DNA of 35,229 nucleotides from a virus: positions 1 through 35,229 of IMG/VR virus record IMGVR_UViG_3300025313_000074. One strand, given 5' to 3'. A program made the translations under genes and the position numbers. Below are positions 3 through 35,036 of the stretch, in pieces. Position 1 is the first letter of the stretch; every line of letters begins with the position of its first letter. The notes under the pieces are model-generated. The model searched no databases and was not told the DNA's origin. It saw only the letters and a list, made by a program, of their open reading frames with translations.

Positions 3-92
3 GATCAATATTTTAATGATACAGAGATATATACTAAAGCTTTTAGTGACGAGATAAATACCATCTATGAAAGGATTCAACTTTTTCGATAA
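3..92 (+). CDS. C-terminal end of an unidentified protein (partial)
   Basis: An open frame enters from the left edge and gives about 29 residues, ending LFR before a TAA at 90-92. The peptide is mixed polar and hydrophobic (for example KAFSDEINTIYERI) and reads like the helical end of a real protein. The next gene starts inside it at 67, an overlap of 26 bases, which fits the tight packing of the following genes and suggests translational coupling. Too little is present to name a family. Given the two glycosyltransferases that follow, another sugar-related enzyme is possible, but nothing visible proves it. Confidence 0.45.
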   Translation, partial: DQYFNDTEIYTKAFSDEINTIYERIQLFR

Positions 93-708
93 AATATTTT
101 ATATCAATTTAGACAAAAGAATAGACAGATTAGAAGCTTGTAAGGGGGAATTAAACAAAGTGGGAGTTATAGCAGAAAGACAACCAGGAATAATCTACGA
201 TGGATTTGAAGATAAGCATAGAAATGCTTGTATAGGAAATCATTTAGCTCACGCTCAATGTCTGATTAAGTCTAGGGGTTTTAATAATGTATTAATCTTT
301 GAGGATGATATTGAATGGCTATTAAATCCCCAAGAAGTATTAGAAAATTTAAATCAATTCCTAATCGAACTCCCTGAAGATTGGGATATATTCTATCTTG
401 GAATTAATATGGATATGTACGAAGCCTACAGAGTTTCAGATCATGTAGCTAAAATTAATGGAGGGTTTTCCACCCATGCTTATTGTGTGAGATCTAATTT
501 ATTCGATCTACTTATTGATATTAATTCTGACAAAACTATCACACATAATGATGTTACTTATACTAACGATGTAATTCCAAATTATAATGTTTATATTCCG
601 ATTCCACTGCTAGCTGGACAAAGAAAAGACTTCAGTGATATCCAGGGGGTTATAATGGATTCAAATCCAATGTTTATTCAAAGATTTAAAGATAGGATGA
701 TAAAATGA
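67..708 (+). CDS. Glycosyltransferase, family 25-like (LPS/glycan type)
   Basis: 213 residues. The N-terminus IFYINLDKRIDRLE (residues 10-23) is the typical opening of GT25 enzymes. It is followed by GNHLAHAQ (57-64), equivalent to the family's GCxxSH-like block, and by IFEDDIEW (77-84), whose EDD stands where the metal/nucleotide-sugar acidic motif is expected. The C-terminal PLLAGQRKDFSDIQG also matches family style (Q...SDI). Such enzymes transfer a sugar from a nucleotide-sugar donor to glycans or protein side chains in the cytoplasm. The ATG at 67 has no clear Shine-Dalgarno and lies inside the upstream frame, so coupling is likely. Its stop overlaps an ATG (705-707). The acceptor is unknown; location directly before the terminase suggests a virion component, which is inference. 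Confidence 0.82.
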   Translation: MKGFNFFDKIFYINLDKRIDRLEACKGELNKVGVIAERQPGIIYDGFEDKHRNACIGNHLAHAQCLIKSRGFNNVLIFEDDIEWLLNPQEVLENLNQFLIELPEDWDIFYLGINMDMYEAYRVSDHVAKINGGFSTHAYCVRSNLFDLLIDINSDKTITHNDVTYTNDVIPNYNVYIPIPLLAGQRKDFSDIQGVIMDSNPMFIQRFKDRMIK

Positions 709-742
709 AACTCACTACTATATTTATTTTAGTTAATTGTAC

Positions 743-1309
743 ATGGAAGTAACTTTTCTGATCCCCACCTTAGGAAGATATTCTATTCATCAGGCTTTAG
801 GAAGCTTAAGGGATCAAACTAATCCTAACTGGAAAGCTATTGTGGTATTCGATAATCACGACATTACCATAAGTACGGATGAAAAAGTATCTGCATATAG
901 ATTTGATAAACCGTTAGGTCAAGGGCCTGGAATAGTAAGAAACTATGCATTTCCATTTGTAGATACCGATTGGATTGCCTTTTTAGATGATGATGATTAT
1001 GTAGATAAAACTTATGTAGATAGAATATTTCATTATGCTAAAGCTAATTATGATTTAATTAACTTCACATATAGAGATGTTAACTCTGGAAATACTCAAC
1101 CATCACCAGGAATGAAAGTTCCACAATACTGTCATATAGGAATGTCTGTAGCTGTGAGAACTTCTTTAGTTCGGGATAATAATATCCAGTTTATTCCAGG
1201 TTCTTGTGAGGATTGGTTTTTTATAGATGATTGTGTTCAAGCCGGGGCCAAGTATATTCTAACGGGGGAGATTTTATATTTTGTTGGTAAGAGGAGTGGT
1301 TGGAGATGA
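743..1309 (+). CDS. Glycosyltransferase, family 2-like (GT-A fold)
   Basis: 188 residues from the ATG at 743; a TTG two codons upstream (737) would also fit. MEVTFLIPTLGRY at the N-terminus is the first GT-A strand, FLDDDDYVD (residues 80-88) carries the DXD metal/nucleotide-sugar site, and SCEDWFFIDD (154-163) supplies the acidic ED motif where GT2 enzymes keep their catalytic base. The protein is shorter than many GT2 enzymes but contains the full catalytic core and lacks membrane segments. No ribosome site precedes the ATG; a 15-codon frame (705-752) runs from the previous stop across this start, so re-initiation is plausible. The stop TGA at 1307-1309 overlaps the terminase ATG. With the GT25 gene it forms a two-enzyme pair. 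Confidence 0.82.
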   Translation: MEVTFLIPTLGRYSIHQALGSLRDQTNPNWKAIVVFDNHDITISTDEKVSAYRFDKPLGQGPGIVRNYAFPFVDTDWIAFLDDDDYVDKTYVDRIFHYAKANYDLINFTYRDVNSGNTQPSPGMKVPQYCHIGMSVAVRTSLVRDNNIQFIPGSCEDWFFIDDCVQAGAKYILTGEILYFVGKRSGWR

Positions 1310-5452: not shown

Positions 5453-6013
5453 ATGGAAATCAACAAGTATACTGATATTACTGGTGTGGTAACTGTTGAA
5501 GATGTTGTAGAAGGTAGAATGGTTCTGCTAGTTAATTCTAGCGAAACTCATGACTATGGTTCTAGAGAGGATTTACCAGGAGTAAGAATTCCTGCTGATT
5601 CCACAGAAGCTGCGAAAGCTAGATTTTGTTTAACTTGGGCAGTCGATAATACTCAACCTCCAATCTACAACCCTTACCCAACAGTAGCTAATACTTCTTT
5701 ACGGTGGGGATTTGACGGAGCTGCGAATGTTCCATTTGCCGCTACTGTTTATCTGTCCTCACTAAGCAATACCGAAGGATTAACTATCCCATCAGGTACT
5801 CTAGCTTTAGCTTTTGGCCCTGGTGTATTTACTATTCCTTCCGGTGGATTTGTTTATAGTGCAAATCTAGTCGCAGGAGCTTACCTAGAAGTACTCAATA
5901 CAGCTGACGATGGAGCTGATGCGGGTAAACTTAACTACACAGCCTCTGTTAGTTTTGCCGAAGTTATGGAGTTGGATGCAGATCAGAACCTAACCTTCCG
6001 CATCCTTTACTAA
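5453..6013 (+). CDS. Head protein, probable capsid decoration protein
   Basis: 186 residues of beta-rich, Gly/Ala/Ser-rich sequence without Cys-based or catalytic motifs. It sits between the scaffold-like gene and the major capsid gene, the place where many phages encode a decoration or cement protein (compare lambda D and its analogues). PSGTLALAFGPGVFTIPSGG (residues 104-123) suggests tight beta turns of a beta-sandwich or beta-barrel. It begins 13 bases after the preceding stop, with AGGAG overlapping that stop region. It would bind the outside of the expanded capsid. The function is inferred from position and composition only. Confidence 0.55.
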   Translation: MEINKYTDITGVVTVEDVVEGRMVLLVNSSETHDYGSREDLPGVRIPADSTEAAKARFCLTWAVDNTQPPIYNPYPTVANTSLRWGFDGAANVPFAATVYLSSLSNTEGLTIPSGTLALAFGPGVFTIPSGGFVYSANLVAGAYLEVLNTADDGADAGKLNYTASVSFAEVMELDADQNLTFRILY

Positions 6014-6034: not shown

Positions 6035-6958
6035 ATGGATGAATTAAAATTAAAGGAAGCTATTGCGTCATTGGCTGAAGATAAAGGGAAAAGAGATGCA
6101 TTAGCTGAAATGTTCGTGGAGTATATCCAACCAAATCATATCGTTGTAGATTTTGTTGGTATGCTTCTAAATGCTAGAGCTCTAAAAGAGGGCGACTCCC
6201 TAGTAAAGAAACTAAGAAGTCAAGCCAGAGTTAGAACTCTAGTTCCAGGTTCTATCCATCTCAAAGACGAGATCACCGTACAGGCCAGAGCTAACTATAT
6301 GTTAGACGGTGCTGATGTTGGTGTAACTTGGAATGAGTGGGAAATGGAAGCTGGAGATATTGGAACAGTAGAAGAAATTAGAAGTGAAATGCTAGCTCAA
6401 CTAAGGGACTACTACCAGACTAAAGTCTTTACAGCTCTTTCTACAATCTGGACAGCTGTCAATACTCCTAACAACTTCGTAAATGTTGGTGGAGCTATTA
6501 ATGCTACCGTTTTGAAAGCTGGTATTGATTATGTCAATCAGACTACTGGTGGAGTAAAAGCTGTAGTTGGTGCTAGATCAGCTCTAACTCCAGTTACTGA
6601 ATTCGGTGCTTTCTGGAAAGATGATTTCTCTGCTGTAACTCCAACTACAGTTGGAATTGATTCTAGACTTGAGCAGGTTATGAGAGAGGGTTGGCTAGGT
6701 ACTTACTACGGAGCTCCTCTTGTAGCTATTAATCAGGTTTGGGATAATCCAGCAGGTCATAATGCACTAATTCCTGTTGATAAGGTTCTAATTATTGGTG
6801 AGAATGTTGGTGAGTTTATTACTTATGGTGATGTTAAACAAAAACAATACAGTGATCCTAAACCAACTCCCCCTCAATGGTTCTTGGAATTCTATCAGAG
6901 ATTTGGTCTAATGATCTGGAAAGCCGAAGGTTTGTACGTATTGGGTGGATTAAGTTAA
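6035..6958 (+). CDS. Major capsid protein, HK97 fold
   Basis: 307 residues with one of the strongest ribosome sites in the window (AGGAGGT at 6020-6026). The N-terminal 60 residues are helical and charged (N-arm). Residues about 110-141 (GTVEEIRSEMLAQLRDYY and onward) form the long spine helix, followed by the P-domain/A-domain alternation VKAVVGARSALTPVTEF and a hydrophobic C-terminal strand LMIWKAEGLYVLGGL, which is characteristic of HK97-type capsid proteins. No large N-terminal delta domain is present, agreeing with a separate scaffold gene upstream. Hundreds of copies build the icosahedral shell. Confidence 0.88.
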   Translation: MDELKLKEAIASLAEDKGKRDALAEMFVEYIQPNHIVVDFVGMLLNARALKEGDSLVKKLRSQARVRTLVPGSIHLKDEITVQARANYMLDGADVGVTWNEWEMEAGDIGTVEEIRSEMLAQLRDYYQTKVFTALSTIWTAVNTPNNFVNVGGAINATVLKAGIDYVNQTTGGVKAVVGARSALTPVTEFGAFWKDDFSAVTPTTVGIDSRLEQVMREGWLGTYYGAPLVAINQVWDNPAGHNALIPVDKVLIIGENVGEFITYGDVKQKQYSDPKPTPPQWFLEFYQRFGLMIWKAEGLYVLGGLS

Positions 6959-7567: not shown

Positions 7568-8575
7568 ATGGCTAGATTATTCACAGACGGCGCTGAGTTT
7601 CAGGATCTTTTGTTCTGGAATCTTGTGCAAGGCGGGCCTGCCATAACCACAGTGGGCTCAAATGTCCGTTCTGGATTGGCGGCATATAGATACAGTAGTG
7701 GATCTCAATACAGTGACAAGATTCTCCCTGCCACTCTATCAGAGTTCTATTTCAGGCTAGGGTATAAAAGAGACGGGGCTACATCAGCGGGAACTAGAAT
7801 ACCAGCCTGGTTTGCGACTTCGACGGAGCTGGGATCGATCCGGCTGAACACAACTACCCATTTTCTTGAACACTATGTGGGTACAACACTGACAACGATG
7901 GGAACAATTCAAATCCCAGTAAGTGCTCACTGTGTGGTTGAAGTCCATGTAAAAATTGGTGATGCTCCGAACGGAATTGTTGAAACTAAGGTAGACGGAA
8001 TACCGGATATCAGCTTTGCTGGAGATAGCAAACCGGGAGCTGATGCCGCTGCCAATATGCTTCGAGTCTACTCTATGGTGTCGTCTGGTATGAACATTGA
8101 CGATCTAGCTCTCAATGACATCACTGGAGCTGCGGACAACTCTTGGTGCGGGGAGGGTAGAGTTGCCCTGCTCAAAGGGAATGCAAATGGAGATGTCTCC
8201 CAGCTCGTAGGTCAGGACGGAAACAGTGTAGATAATTATCTGAATATCGATGATGTTCCTCATGATGGAGATACCACCTACAACCAAGGTATTCTCAGTG
8301 GAGAATACGACCTATATAACCTACAGGCAAGTGGCCTGAGTAATGTTTCTATTCTCCGAGGGTGGATAGAAGCCAGAGCTAGAAAGCTGAATGCATCTCC
8401 CGAAACCGTCCTGCTTGGCTTGAAAACAGACGGTACTGAATACTGGAACGACAGCCACAATCTAATGACAAGTATTACCAGTATCAGAAGGGATCATACG
8501 ATCAATCCTAAAACGGGTTCTCCCTGGACTATAGCCGATTTGGATGCCCTTCAGGTAGGGTTCAAAGTGGAGTAA
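7568..8575 (+). CDS. LamG/concanavalin-like virion surface protein, copy 1
   Basis: 335 residues with a LamG-like beta-sandwich look: LSEFYFRLGYKRDG, STELGSIRLNTTTHFL, GTTLTTMGTIQIPVSAH, VVEVHVKIGDAPNGIVETKV, and the MNIDDLALNDITG strand that closes such domains (to about residue 190). The C-terminal half contains NSWCGEGRVALLKGNANGD and a conserved end PWTIADLDALQVGFKVE. The next gene is a paralogue with the same order of blocks. Sugar or ligand binding on the virion surface is the likely role. GC is clearly higher than in flanking genes (35 of 60 bases in 7801-7860, counted by hand) and CGG/CGA Arg codons appear, suggesting transfer from elsewhere. Confidence 0.7.
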   Translation: MARLFTDGAEFQDLLFWNLVQGGPAITTVGSNVRSGLAAYRYSSGSQYSDKILPATLSEFYFRLGYKRDGATSAGTRIPAWFATSTELGSIRLNTTTHFLEHYVGTTLTTMGTIQIPVSAHCVVEVHVKIGDAPNGIVETKVDGIPDISFAGDSKPGADAAANMLRVYSMVSSGMNIDDLALNDITGAADNSWCGEGRVALLKGNANGDVSQLVGQDGNSVDNYLNIDDVPHDGDTTYNQGILSGEYDLYNLQASGLSNVSILRGWIEARARKLNASPETVLLGLKTDGTEYWNDSHNLMTSITSIRRDHTINPKTGSPWTIADLDALQVGFKVE

Positions 8576-8578
8576 ATT

Positions 8579-9565
8579 ATGAGAGTATTTACAGATGGAG
8601 CTGAATTTGCCGATTCGTTGTTCTGGACAGTTTTCCCAAGCTGGACAGTATCTAATCTTCTTCCAAGATCGGGTGTTTACTCTTATAGAAATGCCCTAAG
8701 CTCAGCAGTTGTCATCACAAAAACGATAGCAGCTCTTTCAGAATTTTACTGGAAAGGAGTCTATAACTATCCTTTAAATAGCACAAGGCTCTTCGTTTGG
8801 TATAACGGAACAACAGAACTTGGCTCAGTCCGGCTCAATACTGGCACAGGCTGTCTTTCTCTTTATACAGGTACAACAACTCTCGTCGCATCTGGAACGA
8901 TCCCATTCCCAATAAACGCTCATGTAATGCTAGAGGTTCACGTCAAAATAGACGATGCTGCTGGTGTTATCGAAACTAAGCTAGACGCTATATCTGACGT
9001 ATCTTTCTCCGGTGACACAAAACCGGGAACAGCGACCGACGTGGATGTTATTGGAGTCGCTGCCACAGGCAGTACTGCAGAACCGGGCTATCTAGATGAT
9101 ATCGCTCTCAATGATACGACAGGTGGGGTAGATGATGGTTGGTGTGGAGATGGAAAAGTAGCTTTACAAATGCCTGACTCAGCCGGTGATGTAACAGGTC
9201 TTTCCCCCTCCGCTGGAGCTAATTGGGAGTGTGTGAATGAGCTCCCTCATAACACCGACACCGACTACGTACAAGATACCGTGGTAGATGACTACGATCT
9301 CTACAATCTATTACCGTGTGGTCTTTCTGGTGTAACTATTCAGCGGGTTTGGGCAGAATCCAGGGCTAGAGATACAGTAGCAGCCGGAGGATTGTGCCAA
9401 GTAGGACTGAAAACCGTAGCCACCGAATACTGGTCTGGAGATCTTAGCCTTCTAACAACCTATACCCCAAAGATTGGGGTTGATCATACTGTAAATCCTA
9501 ACACCCTAGCAGCCTGGACTACAGATCAGTTGGATGCTTTACAAGTGGGGTTCAAGGTGCGCTAA
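8579..9565 (+). CDS. LamG/concanavalin-like virion surface protein, copy 2
   Basis: 328 residues, paralogous to the preceding gene. Shared blocks in the same order are FTDGAEF-D-LFW at the start, ALSEFYWKGVY, TELGSVRLNTGTG, MLEVHVKIDDAAGVIETKLD, SGDTKPGTATD, LDDIALNDTTGGVDDGWCGD, GKVALQMPDSAGDV, YDLYNLLPCGLSGVTIQRVW and a C-terminal WTTDQLDALQVGFKVR. The two begin 1011 bases apart and look like a tandem duplication that has since diverged. The same higher GC and wider Arg codon use are seen. It is probably a carbohydrate-binding structural protein. Its TAA overlaps the ATG of the next gene, so translation is likely coupled. Confidence 0.7.
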   Translation: MRVFTDGAEFADSLFWTVFPSWTVSNLLPRSGVYSYRNALSSAVVITKTIAALSEFYWKGVYNYPLNSTRLFVWYNGTTELGSVRLNTGTGCLSLYTGTTTLVASGTIPFPINAHVMLEVHVKIDDAAGVIETKLDAISDVSFSGDTKPGTATDVDVIGVAATGSTAEPGYLDDIALNDTTGGVDDGWCGDGKVALQMPDSAGDVTGLSPSAGANWECVNELPHNTDTDYVQDTVVDDYDLYNLLPCGLSGVTIQRVWAESRARDTVAAGGLCQVGLKTVATEYWSGDLSLLTTYTPKIGVDHTVNPNTLAAWTTDQLDALQVGFKVR

Positions 9566-9939
9566 TGGCTAAACGAGCTACTAATATTGGAACTCAAACT
9601 GAGTACATCGACTCGGACAATCAGAAACGAGCGACTAATATCGGTGTTCAGGTCGAGTATAAGGATATCGACAACCAGAAACGAGCAACCAACATTGGTG
9701 TCCAAACCGAATATTTGGGAGAGCAAGCTTTTAGAGTTACCCAAGAGGGTTTTGGAGTGGAGTATGCTGACGATCAAGCTTTTAGAGTTACTGCTATTGG
9801 CTTCCAGGTTGAGTATATTGTAATTAGAGGCAAACCGCCCAAGCCCCCTAAACCACCAGGAGGAGGTAAATTTTTACCCCCATCGGAAGGGCCGGACTTA
9901 ATTAGCTCTTATCCATCTATACCACATTTGAGGATTTAA
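9565..9939 (+). CDS. Short-repeat protein (RATNIG-x-Q-x-EY repeats)
   Basis: 124 residues. Residues 3-84 consist of five units of 13-18 residues: KRATNIGTQTEYIDSDNQ, KRATNIGVQVEYKDIDNQ, KRATNIGVQTEYLGEQ, AFRVTQEGFGVEYADDQ and AFRVTAIGFQVEY. Each reads as a beta strand-turn-strand (RATxIGxQxEY), so a small beta solenoid or a string of strand additions is plausible. A Pro/Gly-rich linker (KPPKPPKPPGGGKFLPP) and a short tail follow. The TAATG overlap with the LamG copy 2 gene suggests the products work together. Similar RVTQ-x-x-x-EV/EY motifs occur in small phage structural proteins, in my general knowledge; the function is not established. Confidence 0.6.
   Translation: MAKRATNIGTQTEYIDSDNQKRATNIGVQVEYKDIDNQKRATNIGVQTEYLGEQAFRVTQEGFGVEYADDQAFRVTAIGFQVEYIVIRGKPPKPPKPPGGGKFLPPSEGPDLISSYPSIPHLRI
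9571..9816 (+). repeat. Five tandem 39-54 bp coding repeats
   Basis: Three near-identical units (54, 54 and 48 bases) encode KRATNIG-type repeats, followed by two related units (51 and 39 bases) encoding AFRVT-type repeats. Bases around 9722-9740 and 9775-9793 share a near-identical AAGCTTTTAGAGTTAC core. Units of this similarity can expand or contract by recombination. Confidence 0.75.
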
Positions 9940-9943
9940 ATTT

Positions 9944-10393
9944 ATGGCTAGATTTTATGGAATCGCACAAACCGCAGAAGTAGTTTTAGTTGCAGCTACA
10001 GCAAAAACAGTTATTCAATTAATAGCTCCAGCAAACCATAGAGTAGTTTTAACTGGTTGGGGGGTTTTCTTTGACGGAACATCTGCTAATGCCGAACCAG
10101 TTCAAGTTAGATTACTGAGACAAACTAGTGCTGGAACTATGTCCTCTTTAACTCCTGTCAAGATGGATGGAAGTCTAGCAGAAACTATTCTAACTACATC
10201 TCAACACTCTGCATCAGCAGAACCTACAGCTGGAGATGTTGTAGACATTATTGAATGTCATCCTCAGGGAGGATTTGAAAAACTATTTCCACTTATGCAA
10301 GAAATAATTATTCAAGGTGGAGGTAGAGTGGGTTTGGAATTAACAGCTCCGGCTAACGTTAATGTAAGAGCTAAGTTTATCTTTGAGGAATAG
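9944..10393 (+). CDS. Small phage structural protein of unknown role
   Basis: 149 residues. ATAKTVIQLIAPANHRVVLT, GWGVFFDGTSANAEPVQVRL, LRQTSAGTMSSLTPVKMD and RVGLELTAPANVNVRAKFIF alternate strands and turns throughout, suggesting a compact beta-sandwich. The pattern (AP-N--V-L-GW-V-FDGTS--AEPV-V-LLRQTSAGT) is one I associate with small proteins of unknown function in phages and prophages, without a named role. It lies within the accessory block, 4 bases after the repeat protein, with GAGGA before its start. AT-rich codon use returns here. It could be a decoration or fibre-associated protein. Confidence 0.6.
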   Translation: MARFYGIAQTAEVVLVAATAKTVIQLIAPANHRVVLTGWGVFFDGTSANAEPVQVRLLRQTSAGTMSSLTPVKMDGSLAETILTTSQHSASAEPTAGDVVDIIECHPQGGFEKLFPLMQEIIIQGGGRVGLELTAPANVNVRAKFIFEE

Positions 10394-10395
10394 AA

Positions 10396-11214
10396 ATGTT
10401 ATTTATAGGGCGTAGAGCTGTTTACATAGCTTCTATACCCGTATCCTCGGGAACGGCAGTAGCAGCTTCTTTAACTGGAATTGGAGATTTAAGTTATTCC
10501 GCACTTTTAAATATACCAATATTTTCAACTCTTTCTGGACAGGGAAATTTATCTTTATTAGTGGATGGAATTAGAATAATTTCCAGTTCACTATCTGGAC
10601 AGGGAAGCTTATCATCAGATGTTGATGTAAATGTGGTTATTAGTTCAATATTATCTGGAACTGGAAACTTAACATTTGATATTATTAAAAATATCTTTGC
10701 ACAATCAATTCTATCCGGAATTGGGAATCTTACTGCGAGTCCAATAAAAATCATTTCAGTAACTTCTGAAATGCTAGGAGTGGGCGATCTATCTGCCTTA
10801 GCAATTAGAGGGGTAGTTATATCATCAACTCTTTCTGGTGATGGCAGTTTATCATCAGATGTAATTATACAAGAAGTAATTAGAACTGTTTTATCTGGAT
10901 TAGGTGATCTAGATTCTAATGTTATAAAATTAATTCCAACAATCTCCCAATTTTCGGGCCAGGGAAATTTAATTGAATTTGTAATTCTTTTGATACCAAT
11001 AGAAGCTAGCATAAGTAATATATCAAGTTTATTGACATTCCTAATTAGAAAGATAAAGCCACATAAAAGAATCTATCAGCTAGAAGATAACCTAAGAACA
11101 GTAACATCAGAAGATAACAACGAAACAGTATATATTCACGGAGAAAGAGAAACAAAAATAGGCGAAGAAAGAATAGCTTTTGTCCATAAAATCGGAACGA
11201 GTACAAAAGTTTAG
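10396..11214 (+). CDS. 20-residue tandem-repeat structural protein (LSGxGxL repeats)
   Basis: 272 residues. From residue 26 a unit of exactly 20 residues starting L-S-G-x-G-(N/S/D)-L recurs at 26, 46, 66, 86, 106, 126, 146, 166 and 186, nine units, with a degenerate tenth at 206. Between the glycine turns lie hydrophobic stretches such as IRIISSS and IRGVVISST, so each unit probably has two strands, as in a beta-solenoid or stacked beta-hairpin fibre. Residues 222-272 are a different charged domain (IYQLEDNLRTVTSEDNN, then HGERETKIGEERIAFVHK). No signal peptide or clear membrane segment is seen. It is probably a fibrous virion protein with a C-terminal attachment or trimerisation domain. Confidence 0.65.
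   Translation: MLFIGRRAVYIASIPVSSGTAVAASLTGIGDLSYSALLNIPIFSTLSGQGNLSLLVDGIRIISSSLSGQGSLSSDVDVNVVISSILSGTGNLTFDIIKNIFAQSILSGIGNLTASPIKIISVTSEMLGVGDLSALAIRGVVISSTLSGDGSLSSDVIIQEVIRTVLSGLGDLDSNVIKLIPTISQFSGQGNLIEFVILLIPIEASISNISSLLTFLIRKIKPHKRIYQLEDNLRTVTSEDNNETVYIHGERETKIGEERIAFVHKIGTSTKV
10471..11010 (+). repeat. Nine tandem 60-bp coding repeats
   Basis: Period 60 bases, kept without a single length change over nine units. Units are diverged, with identical words mainly around TCTGGACAGGGAA and TTATCATCAGATGT. The strict length points to selection for a repeating fold rather than recent expansion. Confidence 0.75.
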
Positions 11215-11223
11215 GAGAATTCA

Positions 11224-11598
11224 ATGAGTATTAGTGACTACTTAGAAGATAAAATTTTAGATCATGTGTTGAGAAACACATCTTATACGCCGCCAGCTAT
11301 TGTATATATGAGCTTACATACAAACGATCCCTTAGAAACCGGTGCTGATGAGGTTGTTGGAGGCAGTTACATTAGAAAGGCTATAACTATGGGGCCTGCA
11401 GCTAGTGGAATAATTTCAAACTCGGCTCAACTGTCTTTTACTAGTATGCCCGCTGTTACAATTACACACGCTGGTATTTGGGATGCTGAATCTGGAGTAA
11501 ATTTCCTTTGGGGAGGATCATTAGTAGCTCAAAAAGTTGTAAACGCCGGTGACACTGTACTTTGTGGTATTGGCGATCTAGATGTAACTTTGGATTAA
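11224..11598 (+). CDS. Tail-fibre-associated protein, Gp80-like family
   Basis: 124 residues. The opening SISDYLEDKILDHVLRNTSY, PAIVYMSLHTNDPLETGADE and GGSYIRKAITMGPAASG match the pattern of a widespread small phage family annotated as tail fibre or structural (I recall the Gp80 name for it). TITHAGIWDAESGVNFLWGG and the closing AGDTVLCGIGDLDVTLD complete it. The length agrees with the family. The fold should be a small beta-sandwich. TAGGAG at the previous stop serves as ribosome site. The virion location is uncertain: family members occur near both fibre and connector genes. Confidence 0.6.
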   Translation: MSISDYLEDKILDHVLRNTSYTPPAIVYMSLHTNDPLETGADEVVGGSYIRKAITMGPAASGIISNSAQLSFTSMPAVTITHAGIWDAESGVNFLWGGSLVAQKVVNAGDTVLCGIGDLDVTLD

Positions 11599-11602
11599 TC
11601 CG

Positions 11603-12373
11603 ATGACATCGATCTGGTTCACTAAAGACCCCGAAGCTCTTTTAGATTATACAATAGACTGGTCTGATTGGATGGAGACTAGTGATTTTATTGTAGACAG
11701 TACTTGGATTGCACCAGCTGGAATAACAATTGATCATCAAGTCTTTACTGAGAATAGGACTACTGTTTGGATTTCTGGAGGTACATCCGGAGAAAGCTAT
11801 GATCTAATTAATAGGATCACAACCAATGACGGAAGAGAAGATGAGAGAGATTTAACTATTTATGTTAGAGAAATTCCATATCTTCTATCCAGACTGTTAC
11901 CAGAATTAAGATTACATCTAGGAGATATAAATTCAGCTACTTACAGATATCAAGACGATTGGCTATTAACTGCTCTACTATTATCTGTAAGAAGTTTACA
12001 ACGTTGGTGGAATTTTAAATATCTAGTGGACTTTACTTCTCAGGATGTTTATAGAAACCCAAGCACAACCTTTATACAACCATCTCCTCCGGTAATTGAA
12101 GATGCGGATGTTAGACCAATTATCCTAATGGCGTCAATTATTATCAAAGAGGGGAGTTTACAAGACAGCTCATGGAATTCTGTAGCTTGGAGAGATGCTG
12201 AAATTTCTTATTCTAACCTAGAAGGATCGAGAGCTAAACAAGAACTATTAAGATCTGATTGGGAAGAATTAAAAACTCTTATCTCCCCTCCAAGTAAAAG
12301 ATTAGCATTTCCTAGAAAGGGAAGTCTACCTGGATATATCAATAATGCATACGAAAGAACCACAAGATTTTAA
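11603..12373 (+). CDS. Two-domain structural protein: beta N-terminus and connector/adaptor-like C-terminus
   Basis: 256 residues. Residues 1-90 (IWFTKDPEALLDYTIDWSDW through TTNDGREDERDLTIYVRE) form the strand-rich domain often seen in phage proteins of unknown role that begin with a DP-x-LDY-x-x-DW motif. From about residue 92, LLPELRLHLGDINSATYRYQ and DDWLLTALLLSVRSLQRWWN resemble head-tail connector adaptors (gp6/gp15-like), which are helical bundles bound under the portal. The end is basic. If right, this is an adaptor fused to an extra surface domain. The ribosome site is weak (GGAT). It is about 5 kb away from the other connector candidates. Confidence 0.5.
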   Translation: MTSIWFTKDPEALLDYTIDWSDWMETSDFIVDSTWIAPAGITIDHQVFTENRTTVWISGGTSGESYDLINRITTNDGREDERDLTIYVREIPYLLSRLLPELRLHLGDINSATYRYQDDWLLTALLLSVRSLQRWWNFKYLVDFTSQDVYRNPSTTFIQPSPPVIEDADVRPIILMASIIIKEGSLQDSSWNSVAWRDAEISYSNLEGSRAKQELLRSDWEELKTLISPPSKRLAFPRKGSLPGYINNAYERTTRF

Positions 12374-12398: not shown

Positions 12399-13577
12399 AT
12401 GAATAAAATAAGAGTACTTTGGATTTCAGACGGTGTAATTCCAACAGGTTTTTCTAGAGTATCACATTCAATAATTAAATATCTACCAAAAGATAAATAC
12501 GAGATCCTCCATCTAGCCATTAACTATGATGGTGATCCTCACCCATTCAATCATAAAATATATACAGCTAAAAACAAAGGAGATATTTACGGAACGAATA
12601 GAATTAAAGAATTCTCCAAAGCTGGAGTAGATTTAATTTTTATTTTGAATGACCTGTGGATAACTACTATATATCTAGAAGAAATTAAAAATGTATTTAA
12701 AGAAAATATTCCTCCAGTAGTTGCATATTTTCCAGTAGATGCCAAGGGATATGATTCTGAGTGGTTTAGACATTTTGATATAGTTAAAGAGGCTGTTGTA
12801 TATACTAAATTTGGTTATGATGTGGCCAGAGAAGAAGCTCCAAGAACTTTTGACTTCAAGATAGTTCCTCACGGAGTAGATACTAGCATCTTCTACAAAA
12901 TGGATAAGACTAGAGAAGAATTAAAAAAAGAATTCTTCCCTCCAAGAGAAGATTTTGAAGATTCTTTCATAGTACTCAACGCTAATAGAAATCAACCTAG
13001 AAAGAGAATTGATATTGCAATAAAAGGATTTGCTTTATTTTCTGAAAACAAGCCATTCAATGTTAAATATTATCACCATGCAGGTATTTCAGATGTTGGT
13101 TGGGACGTATTAAAATTAACAGCTAAGCTGAAAAAATTAGGGATGGATAAGAGATTAGTCCTGACTAGCTTTGAAAGGGGAGTTCAAAGAGTTACGGATG
13201 AAAAACTTAATATGATTTATAACTGTACAGATGTAGGTCTAAATACAAGTATGGGAGAAGGATTTGGATTGCCTAATGTTGAACATGCTACTACAGGAGC
13301 TCCTCAAATTGTATCCGGTAATAGTGCCAGCCTAGAGCTATTCCAAGATTGCGGATTAATTATACCTCCCATAATGGAATTAGAATTTGAAAGGGTACAG
13401 ACGACAGGATCACTTGTAACAGCCGAAGCTGTAGCGGAAAAACTGGAGATTATGTACAACAGTCCAGAATTAAGAAAAGAACTTTCTGAAAAATCTTTAG
13501 CTAAGTTTTTAAGTGATAAATACAGGTGGGAAAACATAGCTAAACAGTGGGATGAAATATTTGAATCAGTAATATAG
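12399..13577 (+). CDS. Glycosyltransferase, family 4-like (GT-B fold)
   Basis: 392 residues, normal for GT4. The N-terminal Rossmann part has VLWISDGVIPTGFSRVSHSI (residues 6-25). The donor-binding half carries NANRNQPRKRIDIAIKGF and the E-x7-E motif EGFGLPNVE (E287 and E295), which contacts the nucleotide sugar in GT4 enzymes. No membrane segments are present, so it is a soluble cytoplasmic enzyme. Placement between an adaptor candidate and an Ig-like structural gene is unusual; the gene has the same codon style as neighbours, so it is not a very recent arrival. The AAAAGGAG at 12376-12383 is far from the ATG; a weaker AGGACAGG is adjacent. The acceptor is unknown; virion proteins or host glycans are candidates. 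Confidence 0.88.
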   Translation: MNKIRVLWISDGVIPTGFSRVSHSIIKYLPKDKYEILHLAINYDGDPHPFNHKIYTAKNKGDIYGTNRIKEFSKAGVDLIFILNDLWITTIYLEEIKNVFKENIPPVVAYFPVDAKGYDSEWFRHFDIVKEAVVYTKFGYDVAREEAPRTFDFKIVPHGVDTSIFYKMDKTREELKKEFFPPREDFEDSFIVLNANRNQPRKRIDIAIKGFALFSENKPFNVKYYHHAGISDVGWDVLKLTAKLKKLGMDKRLVLTSFERGVQRVTDEKLNMIYNCTDVGLNTSMGEGFGLPNVEHATTGAPQIVSGNSASLELFQDCGLIIPPIMELEFERVQTTGSLVTAEAVAEKLEIMYNSPELRKELSEKSLAKFLSDKYRWENIAKQWDEIFESVI

Positions 13578-13589
13578 GAGTTGGTTTAA

Positions 13590-13931
13590 ATGACTTATAC
13601 AGGCCAAAATATTGAAATATATCAAGGTGATACTAAATACATAGATGTTACTGTAGACGATGGATCTGGAAATTATGTAAGCCTGACTGGAAGTGCAGTT
13701 GCATGGGTTGTTTACAGACCCACATTCGGTGATGTTATTCTTTCAAAAACAACAGTAAGTGGGATTTCAATTATAGACGAAGCTGGTGGAAAATTTAGAA
13801 TAACACTACAACCAGTGGATACAGAAAATCTATTTGGTCAATATAATCATGAAGGAGAATTAACAGATTCTCAGAATAATGTATTTACCCTATTCACAGG
13901 GTACTTTAAAGTCTTTGGAAGCAAAGCTTAG
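13590..13931 (+). CDS. Ig-like phage structural protein
   Basis: 113 residues, apparently a single beta-sandwich domain: QNIEIYQGDTKYIDVTVDD, SLTGSAVAWVVYRPTFGDVI, GGKFRITLQPVDTENLFGQY and NVFTLFTGYFKVFGSK give seven or so predicted strands. The layout resembles the Ig-like domain found at the N-terminus of Gram-positive phage baseplate and fibre proteins (BppU-like). Here it stands alone. AGGAG precedes the start by a normal distance. It probably decorates the virion or bridges other surface proteins. The family assignment is by pattern only. Confidence 0.6.
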   Translation: MTYTGQNIEIYQGDTKYIDVTVDDGSGNYVSLTGSAVAWVVYRPTFGDVILSKTTVSGISIIDEAGGKFRITLQPVDTENLFGQYNHEGELTDSQNNVFTLFTGYFKVFGSKA

Positions 13932-13943
13932 GAGAAATTAAAA

Positions 13944-14504
13944 ATGAATTTTAGAGATAAATCAAGAATTAAAGGAAAATTAACTGTAACTGTTTTTGGG
14001 CCAGACGGAGAAATAAAAAGACGACCTCAGAATTGGCTACAAAGAGTTTTAGGATTGCCAGGAAGTCTTATGATTTCAGTAAATCATAATATTGTCACTG
14101 ATGAGGGAGATGCTCTAGTTGCTGATATAATGTCAGAGACTCCCGCTAGAACTAAAGTAGATGGAACTAATGGGTATATCCAGGTAGGAACTGGATGGAC
14201 AGGTACAACTCCCAAAGCAAATACAGTTTTGAATACACCAACCGGCACACCCGAACTTATGGATTCAACCTATCCAAAGCAGAAAGGGGCGTTCGGAGCT
14301 GCTAACGATAATGTAACTCAATATAGATCTACGTTTGAAGCTGGTGATTTAAATGCTACTGGCATTGATGAAGCTGGTTTAGGAAATAACGTTGCACCCG
14401 CTTCATGGGATCTTTTAGCTTATGCTCAAATTACTCCCACAGTAGATGTTACTACTTCGGATACTTTACAGGTAGATTGGGAAATAACTTACCTCGGGGC
14501 ATAA
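13944..14504 (+). CDS. Phage structural protein of unknown role (possible fibre component)
   Basis: 186 residues. After a basic N-terminus (FRDKSRIKGKLTV) come WLQRVLGLPGSLMISVNHNI, VTDEGDALVADIMSETPART, GYIQVGTGWTGTTPKANT, NDNVTQYRSTFEAGDLNATG and a strand-rich end DTLQVDWEITYLGA. The GTGWTGTTPKANT and YRSTFEAGDLNATGIDEAGL blocks look like turn-rich loops of a beta-sandwich as found in small phage tail or fibre proteins. It has an AGGAGA ribosome site and is followed 4 bases later by the large repeat protein, so the two are probably made together. The exact role is not visible. Confidence 0.55.
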   Translation: MNFRDKSRIKGKLTVTVFGPDGEIKRRPQNWLQRVLGLPGSLMISVNHNIVTDEGDALVADIMSETPARTKVDGTNGYIQVGTGWTGTTPKANTVLNTPTGTPELMDSTYPKQKGAFGAANDNVTQYRSTFEAGDLNATGIDEAGLGNNVAPASWDLLAYAQITPTVDVTTSDTLQVDWEITYLGA

Positions 14505-14508
14505 ATAA

Positions 14509-17361
14509 ATGCCAACTTTCGGGCCTAGAGCTATTCAAGCTTCTGCCGATGATGCCAGTGAGTTAGCAACTACTGTTGTAAGTATTACAGCTAACCCATT
14601 AGCTAACTGTGATACCACAGGTGTATGGAATGCTTGGAGATTTACTGCTGTAAATATTCCAGCCAATGCTACAATTACATCTGCTTACCTGACAATTAAC
14701 TTCACATCTACAACTTTAGATGAACCTGATGTAACAATCTATGGTTTAGACGTTGCAAGTCCAGCACAGTTTACAACAACTAATGCAGATATAAGTGGTA
14801 GAGCTAGAACATCCGCATCTGTAGATTGGTCTAATACTAATGCTGGCAGTAATGATGTTAATACTTCAGATATAAGTTCCATAATTTCAGAACTTTATGC
14901 AAGCTATGGGCCCTATTCAAACGGAGTAATGGGGTTTTGTTGGACTACTAGAGCTGCTGACGGTGCTAGAGATACTTCTGAAACATCCTATGATGGTGAT
15001 ACATCTTTATGTGCTAGATTAACAATTGTTTATTCTGTAGCTTATACTGAATCCTTTGCTGATACTGTAGGTATTTCAGACAGCATTTCAAAAACTGTAA
15101 GAAGGTTTGTAGCATTTGCTAATACTGTAGGCATAACAGACACATTATCTAAGTCGGGAGCTTTTCTAAAAAGTATTATTAATACTACTGGAATCACTGA
15201 TAGTATTTCTAAAGTCGGGACTTTTGTAAGAAGCTTACCAGAATCTCTTGGAATTACAGATTTAATATCCTATATTAAAACTGGAGGTGGTGATGATTTC
15301 TTTGCCACTATCGGTGATTCATTAGGAATAACTGATAGCCTGAGTAAGATCGGATCATTCTTTAGAACTTTAACAAATACAGAGGAAATCACTACCAGTT
15401 TAACCAATACTAGAAGTTTAATAGTTGCTTTAGTCAATAATGTAGGAATTACTGATGTAATTGTTACATCTAAAACTATTATAAGAACTATTATTGATTC
15501 CATTGGAATTAGAGATTTCTACCATAGAACAGCACTTATCAACATCAATCATGAAACCGGCGATCTTAGTCAATATACTAGTACTGTAACTGATAGTGGT
15601 GATCTCAGTGTTACTACTACCGCTACATTGGCAGGAACAGGATATGGATTGTTATGCTTTGTAGATGATGCCAATCCCATCTATGGACAAAAGGATCTAG
15701 GTGCTGACAATACTAGTGGACAAGTTAGATCACGTTTTTATATAAACCGAAATGATATTTCTATACCTAATGGTCAGAGCTGGGAAATTCTAAGCTTACA
15801 GTCTGCAATCGGATCTGGCAATATACTGCGCTTCTGGATCAGAAACTCAGCTGGGAACTACCAAGTTTACTTTCTGGCTTATCGTGATGGTGGTACTACT
15901 AGTAGTGGGTTTGTAAATCTTACTGCTGTTGAACATTATATTGAATTACATGTTGTTAGAGCATCTGGTGATGGTATTACAGATGGCTATGTAAACTGGT
16001 GGATTGATGGGGCCGCACAAACTAGTGTTACAGATATTGATAACTACACTGAGTTTCCATACTTCCGATCTACACGTTTTGGCATTCCCGCTATCGGCGG
16101 TGGAAGTGGCTCTCTTTATCTTGATGAATTAGTAATCAATGACTCAGGTTATGAAATTGGTCAAGTAAGGGATTTAAATACATCAGCATTTTTTATAAGA
16201 AATATTTTAATTAGTGTTGGTATTACAGACAGTATTTCCAAAATTGGTACTTTTATAAAATCTTTATCAGATAGTATAGGGATTACTGATATACTATCAA
16301 CAGCTAAGATAGTTTTAGTTTCTTTGTCGAATTCTGTAGGGATAACAGATGTTCTAACTAAACTTGTAGGATTTGCTAGGTCTATTACAGATACAGAAGA
16401 AATTACTACTAGTATTTCAAAGGCAGCTAATTTTTTCAGAACCCAAACAGAAAGTCTCGGAATAACAGATATATTAAGTAGGTCTAAAGGAGCTATAGTA
16501 TATTTAGCTGATTCATTAGGAATAGCCGATGCTATTTCCAATGCTAAGATAATTGTTAAATCTTTGTCCGATAGTGTTGGAATTACCGATAGTATTTCAA
16601 AGATAGGTGCATTTTATAGAAATCTTGCAAATAATGTTAGTATAACCGATGTTCTAAGTAAAACTGGAATCTTCTTAAAATCCTTATCAAATAGTGTAGG
16701 AATTACTGACAGTGTAAGTAAAGCAGGTACTTTTTTCAAATCCATATCAGATTCTATTGGAATATCTGATGTACTAGCAACAGCTAAGATAGTACTTGTA
16801 ACACTATCTGATGTACTAGGAATAACCGATACTCTATCTAAGATAGGGACTTTTGTCAGGGCATTAACTTCTACAGAGGGGATTACAGATACTCTTACAA
16901 AAATAGGAACTTTTGTTAGAAGTTTTTCAGATAGTATAGGCATAACAGATTTACTATCTGCTGTATTACTAGGAGCGCAGAAATTTGCTTCATTGGTAGA
17001 TTCTGTAAGCATAACAGATACACTAAGTAAAATAGGTACTTTTGTTAGAACTATCTCTAATGCTGAAAATATATCAGATGTCTTGTCCAAAATAGGAACT
17101 TATATAAGAACAATCCTAACTTCAGAAAGTATCTCAGATAGTCTCTCAGCCTCCAAAGTCATTCAAATTTTAATCCAGAATATAGTTAACATCACAGATA
17201 CACTCCAAGCAACTATTGTATCTATCTTTACTGAGAGTATCATAGCTATAAGAGGAAGAGTAAAGTCAGTAATCACTCTATCTGGAGAATATATTCAAAT
17301 CATAAGTAAAAAGGGTAGAGCTAGTTTGATAGCAGAAATCTTGGGAAGAATCAGAAAATGA
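14509..17361 (+). CDS. Giant repeat adhesin-like protein: CBM-like head, 25 x 20-residue repeats, LamG insert
   Basis: 950 residues. Residues 1-182 form a beta-sandwich-like domain (IPANATITSAYLTINFTSTT; SNGVMGFCWTTRAADGARDT) similar in style to DNRLRE/carbohydrate-binding modules. From residue 183 a 20-residue unit recurs, consensus LSDSIGITDSISKIGTFVRS. There are seven units, then a unit broken after 13 residues (ending FYHR, residue 340). A LamG-like domain follows (341-558, with GQVRSRFYINRNDISIPNGQ and HYIELHVVRASGDGITDGYV), then the missing seven residues SAFFIRN, then 17 more units to about residue 908. A basic tail ends the protein. No signal peptide is present, as expected for a virion protein. 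A long fibre with sugar-binding domains is the best reading. Its TGA overlaps the next ATG. Confidence 0.75.
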   Translation: MPTFGPRAIQASADDASELATTVVSITANPLANCDTTGVWNAWRFTAVNIPANATITSAYLTINFTSTTLDEPDVTIYGLDVASPAQFTTTNADISGRARTSASVDWSNTNAGSNDVNTSDISSIISELYASYGPYSNGVMGFCWTTRAADGARDTSETSYDGDTSLCARLTIVYSVAYTESFADTVGISDSISKTVRRFVAFANTVGITDTLSKSGAFLKSIINTTGITDSISKVGTFVRSLPESLGITDLISYIKTGGGDDFFATIGDSLGITDSLSKIGSFFRTLTNTEEITTSLTNTRSLIVALVNNVGITDVIVTSKTIIRTIIDSIGIRDFYHRTALININHETGDLSQYTSTVTDSGDLSVTTTATLAGTGYGLLCFVDDANPIYGQKDLGADNTSGQVRSRFYINRNDISIPNGQSWEILSLQSAIGSGNILRFWIRNSAGNYQVYFLAYRDGGTTSSGFVNLTAVEHYIELHVVRASGDGITDGYVNWWIDGAAQTSVTDIDNYTEFPYFRSTRFGIPAIGGGSGSLYLDELVINDSGYEIGQVRDLNTSAFFIRNILISVGITDSISKIGTFIKSLSDSIGITDILSTAKIVLVSLSNSVGITDVLTKLVGFARSITDTEEITTSISKAANFFRTQTESLGITDILSRSKGAIVYLADSLGIADAISNAKIIVKSLSDSVGITDSISKIGAFYRNLANNVSITDVLSKTGIFLKSLSNSVGITDSVSKAGTFFKSISDSIGISDVLATAKIVLVTLSDVLGITDTLSKIGTFVRALTSTEGITDTLTKIGTFVRSFSDSIGITDLLSAVLLGAQKFASLVDSVSITDTLSKIGTFVRTISNAENISDVLSKIGTYIRTILTSESISDSLSASKVIQILIQNIVNITDTLQATIVSIFTESIIAIRGRVKSVITLSGEYIQIISKKGRASLIAEILGRIRK
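15055..15528 (+). repeat. First part of 60-bp repeat array
   Basis: Seven complete units of the ITD-S-SK repeat plus the first 13 codons of an eighth. All are 60 bases except the fourth, which carries a 15-base Gly/Asp-rich addition (around residues 256-267). The array stops in mid-unit where the LamG-like domain begins at 15529. Confidence 0.8.
16183..17232 (+). repeat. Second part of 60-bp repeat array
   Basis: It begins with the last seven codons of the unit interrupted at 15528, then 17 units. All are 60 bases except one with a 9-base addition (FASLVDSVS, near 16983). Units such as ATAGGTACTTTTGTTAGAA recur almost unchanged, for example near 17031 and 16904. Confidence 0.8.
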
Positions 17362-17813
17362 GTATAACATTTCCTACAAACACAGCCGATGTAATAGATG
17401 AAATACGAGGAGCTATTGGAAGAAGTATAACTTTCTATGTAGTTACAGTTAGTGGTTGTCAAGCCTGTACATTAGATCCTATTACAAATACATCTACAGA
17501 TTCTTTCTGTCCTGTATGTAGTGGAGTTCACTGGATTGTTACTTTATCCGGAGCTGCCATTAATGCTCATATAATATGGGGAAACGTGGATAGCTTGGGT
17601 TGGTATCCTGGAGGGCAGACTCTAGAAGGGGATTGCAGAGCTCAAATAAAATACACTCTACCTAACATAACAATAGTAGATTCTGTTTTTGAAAATCAAT
17701 CTATATATGGGGCATATATAGATGTAGACGGTAAACATATGGAAATAAAAAATAAAGTATTAAGAGGAGTACCAGAAATCAATAGAATTTTAATTGATCT
17801 AAAGGAGGTATAA
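17358..17813 (+). CDS. Zinc-knuckle head-tail connector candidate
   Basis: 151 residues. A four-cysteine set, SGCQACTLDP (C34, C37) and SFCPVCSGVHW (C51, C54), forms a CxxC-x13-CxxC zinc-knuckle pattern. The rest is strand-rich: RSITFYVVTV, GAAINAHIIWGNVDS, DCRAQIKYTLPNITIVDSVF and MEIKNKVLRGVPEINRILID. Small phage proteins of this type lie just before the tail-completion genes and are often called head closure or neck proteins. Here it is first in the group of four genes leading to the tail tube. It begins in an ATGA overlap with the giant repeat protein. Connector function is inferred from order and from the compact beta fold. Confidence 0.55.
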   Translation: MSITFPTNTADVIDEIRGAIGRSITFYVVTVSGCQACTLDPITNTSTDSFCPVCSGVHWIVTLSGAAINAHIIWGNVDSLGWYPGGQTLEGDCRAQIKYTLPNITIVDSVFENQSIYGAYIDVDGKHMEIKNKVLRGVPEINRILIDLKEV

Positions 17814-34037: not shown

Positions 34038-35036
34038 ATGAAAAAAATAATTATATCGTTTCTAGTTGTAACAGTATTGTTCCTTTCTTCTGCACCGCCA
34101 TCCAGCGTGTATCTACAAGATTTTCCCACAGACACTCCAACGAATACAGATTTCCCCACTGATACACCATTCCCAACAGACACTCCTCTCCCGACAGATA
34201 CACCCACCCCCACCAATACACTTCTCCCAACGAATACAGACTTTCCAACAGATACTACCGTTCCTACATCTACTCCAACGAAGAAAGAGGAAACAAAGAA
34301 TACATCAACTCCTACCAGAACTATTGATCCTGGCTATACATCTACTCCCACGATAACTAGACAACCCACAGCTACACCAATAACTCCCACAGTCACTTTA
34401 ACCAGAGTTCCTACAAATACGCCAACTAAAACCCCAACAGCTACTAAAATCCCAACGCTCACTTCTAGAGCTCCTACTCCATTTCCATCAACCACACCAC
34501 GACCAACCAAGTATCCTACTTATACTCCCTATCCTACTCAGACTGATTTACCTACCTACACTCCCAATCCAACTTATACACCAAAACCTACCTACACTCC
34601 TATAGTAGTAGTTATTGTAGCTCCTACAGAAGTACCTATTACCACTGAAGGAGTAATCATAACTAATGAGGGAGTAACTATTGAAAAAAATGTAACTCAA
34701 CCAGTTAATATAGAGCTTCCCATATCCTTTAAAATTATAAATTACCTAGGCTTTGCTTTAACTTTTATGGGAACATATTTTATGAGTACGTTTCTATTCA
34801 AAAGGAAAAATAGAGACAGAATTCGGGGAAATATTTATGTATTAATTTTCTTATTAAATTCAATGATATACTACACAGCCTGGTTTTTAAACGAGCGTGG
34901 ATTCTTAACAATAGAATATTCTGATATATTTTTTATGAAGTGGAGAATGCTACTGCTATTCCATATTCTATTATCTGGAACTATCATGGCATGGTACGCT
35001 TGTTGGAAATCCGGGGGATGCGGATATGGAAAGTAA
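34038..35036 (+). CDS. Pro/Thr-rich, signal-peptide, three-TM membrane protein
   Basis: 332 residues. Residues 1-20 ([20 protein letters not shown]) form a signal peptide or anchor. Residues 30-189 are almost entirely PT-rich repeats such as [10 protein letters not shown]. Three hydrophobic helices follow at about 232-254, 266-284 and 303-323. The basic stretch [10 protein letters not shown] after the first helix puts that loop inside, so the PT region should be outside the cell. Such PT repeats are common in secreted Chloroflexota proteins and are possible O-glycosylation sites. It stands between fibre and holin-like genes. Lysis, superinfection exclusion or host-surface modification are all possible; the sequence does not decide. 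Confidence 0.65.
34125..34604 (+). repeat. Pro-Thr-rich low-complexity coding repeat
   Basis: About 480 bases encode degenerate PT-x-T units, with near-identical words such as CCAACGAATACAGA at two places (near 34137 and 34228). The repetition is strongest in the first 130 bases and looser, with Tyr-rich YPTYTP units, at the end. Part of the membrane protein gene. Confidence 0.7.

Follow-up and report, generated by a model that had tools for sequence, protein, structure and literature searches.

A GT4-type glycosyltransferase is a core gene of an uncultured lineage of tailed phages, as judged from the fixed slot that the gene occupies and from a divergence that tracks that of the terL, portal, capsid and tail-tube genes. 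The sequence analysed here, referred to as the window, is the 35,229 bp IMG/VR record IMGVR_UViG_3300025313_000074 (positions 1 to 35,229). We favour, with a probability of roughly 0.58, the reading that the phage uses its own core GT4 to glycosylate a conserved virion protein, the glycan being supplied or extended by a sugar cassette located upstream of terL. In the window the late genes of a tailed phage (terL, portal, capsid, tail tube, tape measure and tail) form a co-oriented module. All genes surrounding GT4 lie on the + strand, and the gaps flanking it are 25 and 12 bp. This layout suggests a single transcription unit spanning GT4 and its neighbours; a search for a promoter signal found none above chance.

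Is this gene a genuine glycosyltransferase? The open reading frame at 12399..13577 (+ strand, 392 aa) had been described in an earlier note, made from the sequence alone, as an intact GT4 enzyme with an E-x7-E motif, and that description holds. PHROG 2170 ‘glycosyltransferase’ matches residues 6–391 at 7.6e-37. The Pfam family GT4-conflict (PF20706) just passes its curated cut-off of 26 (4e-6, score 26.5), while Glycos_transf_1 (PF00534) just misses its cut-off of 26.4 (8e-6, score 25.9). Across 40 aligned family members E287 and E295 of the E-x7-E motif (13257..13283, + strand) are invariant, as are R197, N198, Q199, R201 and K202 of an RNQxRK motif (residues 197–202; 12987..13004, + strand). 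From knowledge of the GT4 family we take the latter to be the probable donor-phosphate site. The AlphaFold model built from the 40-sequence alignment has a mean pLDDT of 94.5 and the GT-B fold: two Rossmann-like domains, with a C-terminal helix that crosses back. Its best match in the PDB is 3oy2 (TM 0.82, E 6e-28), other top matches being BshA, HepE, MshA and PimA. The 3oy2 protein, chlorovirus B736L, is also the best solved match by sequence (1.2e-16). In most close pairs with measurable dS, dN is roughly 5–20 times lower than dS; the gene is under strong purifying selection. Fold, motifs and dN/dS rule out a chance open reading frame or a pseudogene. Sequence and model together suggest a GT-B sugar transferase that is probably active.

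How firmly is this enzyme tied to the genes around it? A scan of viral contigs with the GT4 alignment returned at least 581 confirmed relatives, of which the best 80 were retained. To lessen ascertainment through GT4 itself, a second sample was drawn with an alignment of the capsid protein (A2); it comprises 62 loci, each with its own capsid sequence. One recurring gene order emerges from profiles of the window genes: terL, portal, g5, g6, major capsid protein (MCP), g8, connector, GT4, g20, g21, g22, g23, tail tube, g25, g26, tape measure protein. In the capsid-drawn sample GT4 lies between connector and g20 in 28/28 contigs spanning that slot, and in 13 of the 16 that extend as far as the connector but stop short of g20; the remaining three end only 302, 2 and 0 bp past the connector. 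Since the capsid alignment was seeded mostly from GT4-bearing loci, these counts describe the lineage within reach of that alignment. Connector and GT4 adjoin each other in 106 loci, where the gap has a median of 15 bp; GT4 and g20 do so in 77 loci, with a median overlap of 10 bp. Members come from many metagenomes; their GT4s are roughly 39–61% identical to that of the window, and MCP identity within the lineage is 50–77%.

GT4 divergence correlates with that of terL (Mantel r 0.76), portal (0.75), g6 (0.67), MCP (0.59), connector (0.67), g20 (0.74) and tail tube (0.76), with 0/500 permutations in these tests; the reference pair MCP–terL gives r 0.64. On a maximum-likelihood GT4 tree the 68 lineage members require 3 label changes, compared with 14 when labels are shuffled, and GT4s from Synechococcus phages and from marine-type contigs nest among those of the lineage. 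From the invariable slot, the co-divergence, a dN far below dS and the clustering on the tree, we conclude that GT4 is a core gene with a long vertical residence. Codon use and GC (33%) of GT4 resemble those of its neighbours, as had been claimed earlier; the foreign-looking genes are instead g9 and g10 (46–47% GC). Slot, co-divergence and codon use together rule out a moron or a recent insertion.

The genes on either side of GT4 deserve a word. The connector-like gene directly 5′ (11603..12373, + strand) is, in the window, a fusion carrying an N-terminal gp77-type adaptor domain (PF23148, 1e-26, residues 8–86) that relatives mostly lack; its C-terminal half corresponds to the relatives' core gene, mostly of 155–177 aa. 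This relatives' version matched no named family in PHROG, and the name connector is taken from the position of the gene. The small core gene g20 (17358..17813, + strand) stands immediately 3′ of GT4 in most relatives. In the window it is displaced by g17, g18 and the Ser/Thr-rich repeat protein rep19 (13590..17361, + strand), which are rare in relatives, while fibre-like and repeat genes, g9–g14, lie between g8 and connector (7568..11598, + strand). Both stretches are missing from most relatives: the fibre-like genes and the Ser/Thr repeat proteins around the window GT4 are variable insertions.

Set against this constant gene is a variable sugar cassette upstream of terL. The identities given earlier for two window genes were borne out, that of GT2 (737..1309, + strand) by PF00535 at 1.4e-13 and that of GT25 (67..708, + strand; PHROG 2835, 6e-7) by procollagen galactosyltransferase 1, which its profile matches at 2e-9; the GT25 profile also matches ‘Putative glycosyltransferase R655’ at 9e-4. 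These two genes form the last part of a cassette that, in near-identical contigs, extends to the left of the window edge. In contig L013 the cassette includes a GT11 (fucosyltransferase-type), a cytidylyltransferase-like gene, a methyltransferase and an FkbM methyltransferase, and in the relative L015 additionally a GmhA-like isomerase and more GT2s. Among 120 open reading frames upstream of terL we counted 13 GT2, seven GDP-mannose dehydratase/epimerase, four DegT, four FkbM, three NKWYS, two sulfotransferase and one NeuB. A GT2-type gene stands immediately 5′ of terL in 39/73 loci, the commonest family in that place matching Pfam GT2 in 10 of 19 members. The second commonest family upstream of terL (28 loci; L020:806-1681 and 27 homologues) encodes proteins of about 290 aa, mostly directly 5′ of GT2. 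It had no convincing match among Pfam and PDB profiles and is perhaps an undescribed glycosyltransferase. A SIS protein resembling GmhA (L015:6017-6532) and a RfaE-II/TagD-like cytidylyltransferase (L013:6983-7423), both below the equivalog cut-off, offer a lead, and only a lead, to a possible heptose route.

What role might a constant GT4 and a variable cassette play? In the reading we favour, GT4 would be produced alongside the head–tail joining proteins, within the obligatory late gene set, and would move a nucleotide-activated sugar to a conserved virion protein: the capsid, the cement-like g6, the neck or the tail tube. The cassette, with its GT2, GT25, GT11, sugar-nucleotide, amino-, methyl- and sulfotransfer genes, would provide unusual sugars and extend or cap the glycan. 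Core transfer would thus be constant and decoration strain-dependent, the benefit being a protected particle or a tuned adsorption. Catalytic activity, the virion-protein acceptor, the joint action of cassette and GT4 on one glycan, and the benefit to particle or adsorption are all presumed. Two candidate acceptors are core genes. The MCP (6035..6958, + strand) is assigned through its homologue in L102, which matches the PHROG 29 major head protein at 1.5e-6. The adjacent g6 (5453..6013, + strand) is by predicted structure a probable capsid cement or decoration protein and a candidate surface acceptor; its AF2 model has a pLDDT of 80.5, and its best Foldseek matches, weak ones (probability 0.99–1.0 but E only 0.014), are capsid or head-fibre proteins of HFTV1, T1 and TW1 and the base of phi29 gp8.5. 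Weighing against this reading, the acceptor cannot be identified from gene position, the lineage is known from genes alone, GT4 relatives in other phage groups (L116–L132) look like optional cargo, the GT4 of Synechococcus phage S-EIV1 stands apart from structural genes, and even for B736L, the nearest solved relative, the acceptor is unsettled (PMC9614988).

Could GT4 instead work with the particular enzymes and repeat proteins that accompany it in the window? The earlier note had proposed virion glycosylation in just this form, with GT4, GT25 and GT2 as one pathway and the Ser/Thr-rich repeat proteins as candidate acceptors, and had itself named independent occurrence of these genes in relatives as a refutation of it. 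In the window all components are present and co-directional, and four loci have all three glycosyltransferases; GT25 is present in 13/13 loci with GT2. However, among the 67 informative loci (those where terL is present with 1.5 kb or more of sequence upstream) 46 have GT4 with neither GT2 nor GT25. Of 115 loci with GT4 and connector, rep19 is found in 14, rep13 in 8 and g18 in 15, and g18 and rep19 also occur in records lacking a Glycos_transf_1 match (e.g. those of L024, L030 and L040). Since most such loci lack them, rep13 and rep19 are unlikely to be an obligatory acceptor. These counts reject the three enzymes and their repeat-protein acceptors as an obligatory unit, and we hold even a one-pathway arrangement acting on rep13 and rep19 to be most improbable. 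What survives of the proposal is a glycosylation capacity tied to virion genes, through the core GT4 and the cassette by terL; the three-enzyme pathway and the repeat-protein acceptors find no support. A narrower version of virion glycosylation would make it an obligatory assembly step, in which GT4 modifies a connector, neck or capsid protein and head–tail joining needs that modification. Although this would account for a GT4 that is no less invariant or tightly coupled than its flanking connector genes, we rate it as rather unlikely. The same strict slot, and a divergence equal to that of g20 and connector, could also be read as signs of a packaged or structural protein, either a glycosyltransferase fold recruited to serve in the neck or elsewhere in the virion, or an enzyme that is delivered to the infected cell. 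But GT4 keeps its catalytic and donor-site residues without exception, as an enzyme would, and the glycosyltransferases of the virion operon of Corndog were not found in virions (PMC4351075), so that this role seems very unlikely.

Two further readings place the acceptor outside the particle. During infection, GT4 and the cassette might alter structures on the host cell surface, such as O-antigen, teichoic acid, S-layer or capsule, and so block superinfection or the re-adsorption of progeny. The cassette genes do resemble surface-polysaccharide genes (GMD, DegT, NeuB, NKWYS and a TuaG-like GT2), and serotype conversion by phage glycosyltransferases is established in temperate phages, according to passages of PMC12619734. 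On the other hand, inspection of the neighbours, which was not systematic, noticed no membrane-embedded flippase or O-acetylase partner beside GT4; overlap ties GT4 to late head–tail genes, and its co-inheritance with the capsid is stricter than a surface-conversion moron would be expected to show. We regard this reading as unlikely. Alternatively, GT4 might glycosylate the bases of the phage DNA as a hypermodification against restriction. Its best Pfam match is GT4-conflict, one of the 120 open reading frames upstream of terL matches the TET-associated glycosyltransferase (TAGT) family, and phage glycosyltransferases that act on DNA are known (passages of PMC12619734, citing Pyle 2024). Yet thymidylate synthase or hydroxymethylase was found in 0/24 records, these being fragments, with a positive control, and TAGT in 0/19 records, likewise fragments; a TET/JBP search of 24 records was silent, as was its control. 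GT4 is moreover grouped with head–tail rather than replication genes, and we consider DNA glycosylation highly improbable.

How does glycosylation of a conserved virion protein by the core GT4 compare with systems already described? Phage-encoded virion glycosylation and phage GT4 enzymes are known, as are uncultured phages with core glycosyltransferases (passages of PMC12619734). Mycobacteriophages use glycosyltransferases of their own to glycosylate capsid and tail tube (Freeman 2023, as cited in passages of PMC12363180). Corndog carries an O-methyltransferase and three glycosyltransferase genes between portal and protease, and while infected cells contained the glycosyltransferases, none was identified in virions (PMC4351075). 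The window lineage is like Corndog, Che8 and Myrna (clusters O, F and C) in having phage glycosyltransferase genes within the virion gene block, here in every spanning contig, and like Corndog in having accessory modification genes (a methyltransferase and further glycosyltransferases) nearby, here in the cassette upstream of terL. Unlike these three phages it has one GT4, invariant at the slot between connector and g20. A tblastn search of 50,697 phage records with the window GT4 at 1e-5 gave 8 matches, none mycobacterial.

The closest solved structure by both sequence and fold, B736L of chlorovirus NY-2A (PDB 3OY2/3OY7), is likewise a virus-encoded GT-B enzyme. It binds GDP-mannose best among the donors tested, and its acceptor and true donor are unsettled (PMC9614988). 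Unlike the window GT4, to which it is 21% identical, it comes from a eukaryotic giant virus and lies outside a head–tail module. Full-length PHROG 2170-like glycosyltransferases, 27–34% identical to the window GT4, are encoded by the Synechococcus phages S-CBS4 and S-EIV1 and by Tetrasphaera phage TJE1, in which gene order and phage group differ from those of the window lineage. In S-CBS4 a galactosyltransferase and a SAM methyltransferase come next after the GT4, near portal, and in S-EIV1 it stands beside primase, away from the structural genes. The S-CBS4 and S-EIV1 enzymes fall inside the lineage GT4 tree and that of TJE1 outside. The moraphages, which are aquatic, are likewise an uncultured lineage with glycosyltransferases among their widely shared, core genes; their genomes are large, and the passages of PMC12619734 that concern them describe no fixed connector-module GT4. 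The head gene order recurs in Bacillus phage Slash, but no glycosyltransferase is annotated in its head module. Our search of the open-licence literature found no earlier description of a lineage in which a GT4, held in place between connector genes, belongs to the core of the morphogenesis module.

Virion glycosylation has been documented mainly in a few mycobacteriophages, whose glycosyltransferase genes differ between clusters. Should GT4 act on a virion protein, an entire group of tailed phages would have glycosylation as a permanent trait, with a constant core chemistry and strain-specific decoration. The field of candidate acceptors narrows to the conserved structural proteins, roughly a dozen in number, and the repeat proteins are disfavoured as an obligatory target.

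Searches with terL and capsid found no cultured relative closer than 21–27% identity, and a single-sequence scan of genome collections with GT4 found no host. The capsid-alignment scan found two contigs (L202 and L203) within metagenome-assembled genomes labelled Brevinema and Bathyarchaeota. Since these labels disagree and the contigs look like binned phage, we claim no host; the contigs are probably binned free phage and possibly a host lead. In the other phage groups (L116–L132) the same-family GT4 lies on the strand opposite most of its neighbours, and many copies adjoin a conserved gene of 506–507 aa. There the gene looks like optional cargo, unlike in the window lineage.

Several minor observations were made in passing. 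At the end of the tail genes, window positions 34038-35036 encode a protein that begins with a signal-like segment and has a long Thr/Pro-rich stretch of the PTATPT type, hydrophobic C-terminal segments and 26% Ser+Thr; no homologue was found among the relatives' loci compared. The adjacent homologues g9 and g10 (7568-9565) deviate in codon use, and their GC compares with about 35% elsewhere; they are probably recent acquisitions. Two contigs 99.8–99.9% identical to the window, one numbered L005/L134 and the other L006/L135, stop within GT4 at 13059 and 13019, and these ends 40 bp apart may reflect strain variation that halted assembly just before the variable insertions. Finally, in three loci the capsid gene is in two pieces (L062:7144-8891, L063:7144-8891 and L075:3766-5355) separated by an open reading frame of 262 or 174 aa, the pattern expected of an intron or intein that carries a homing endonuclease.
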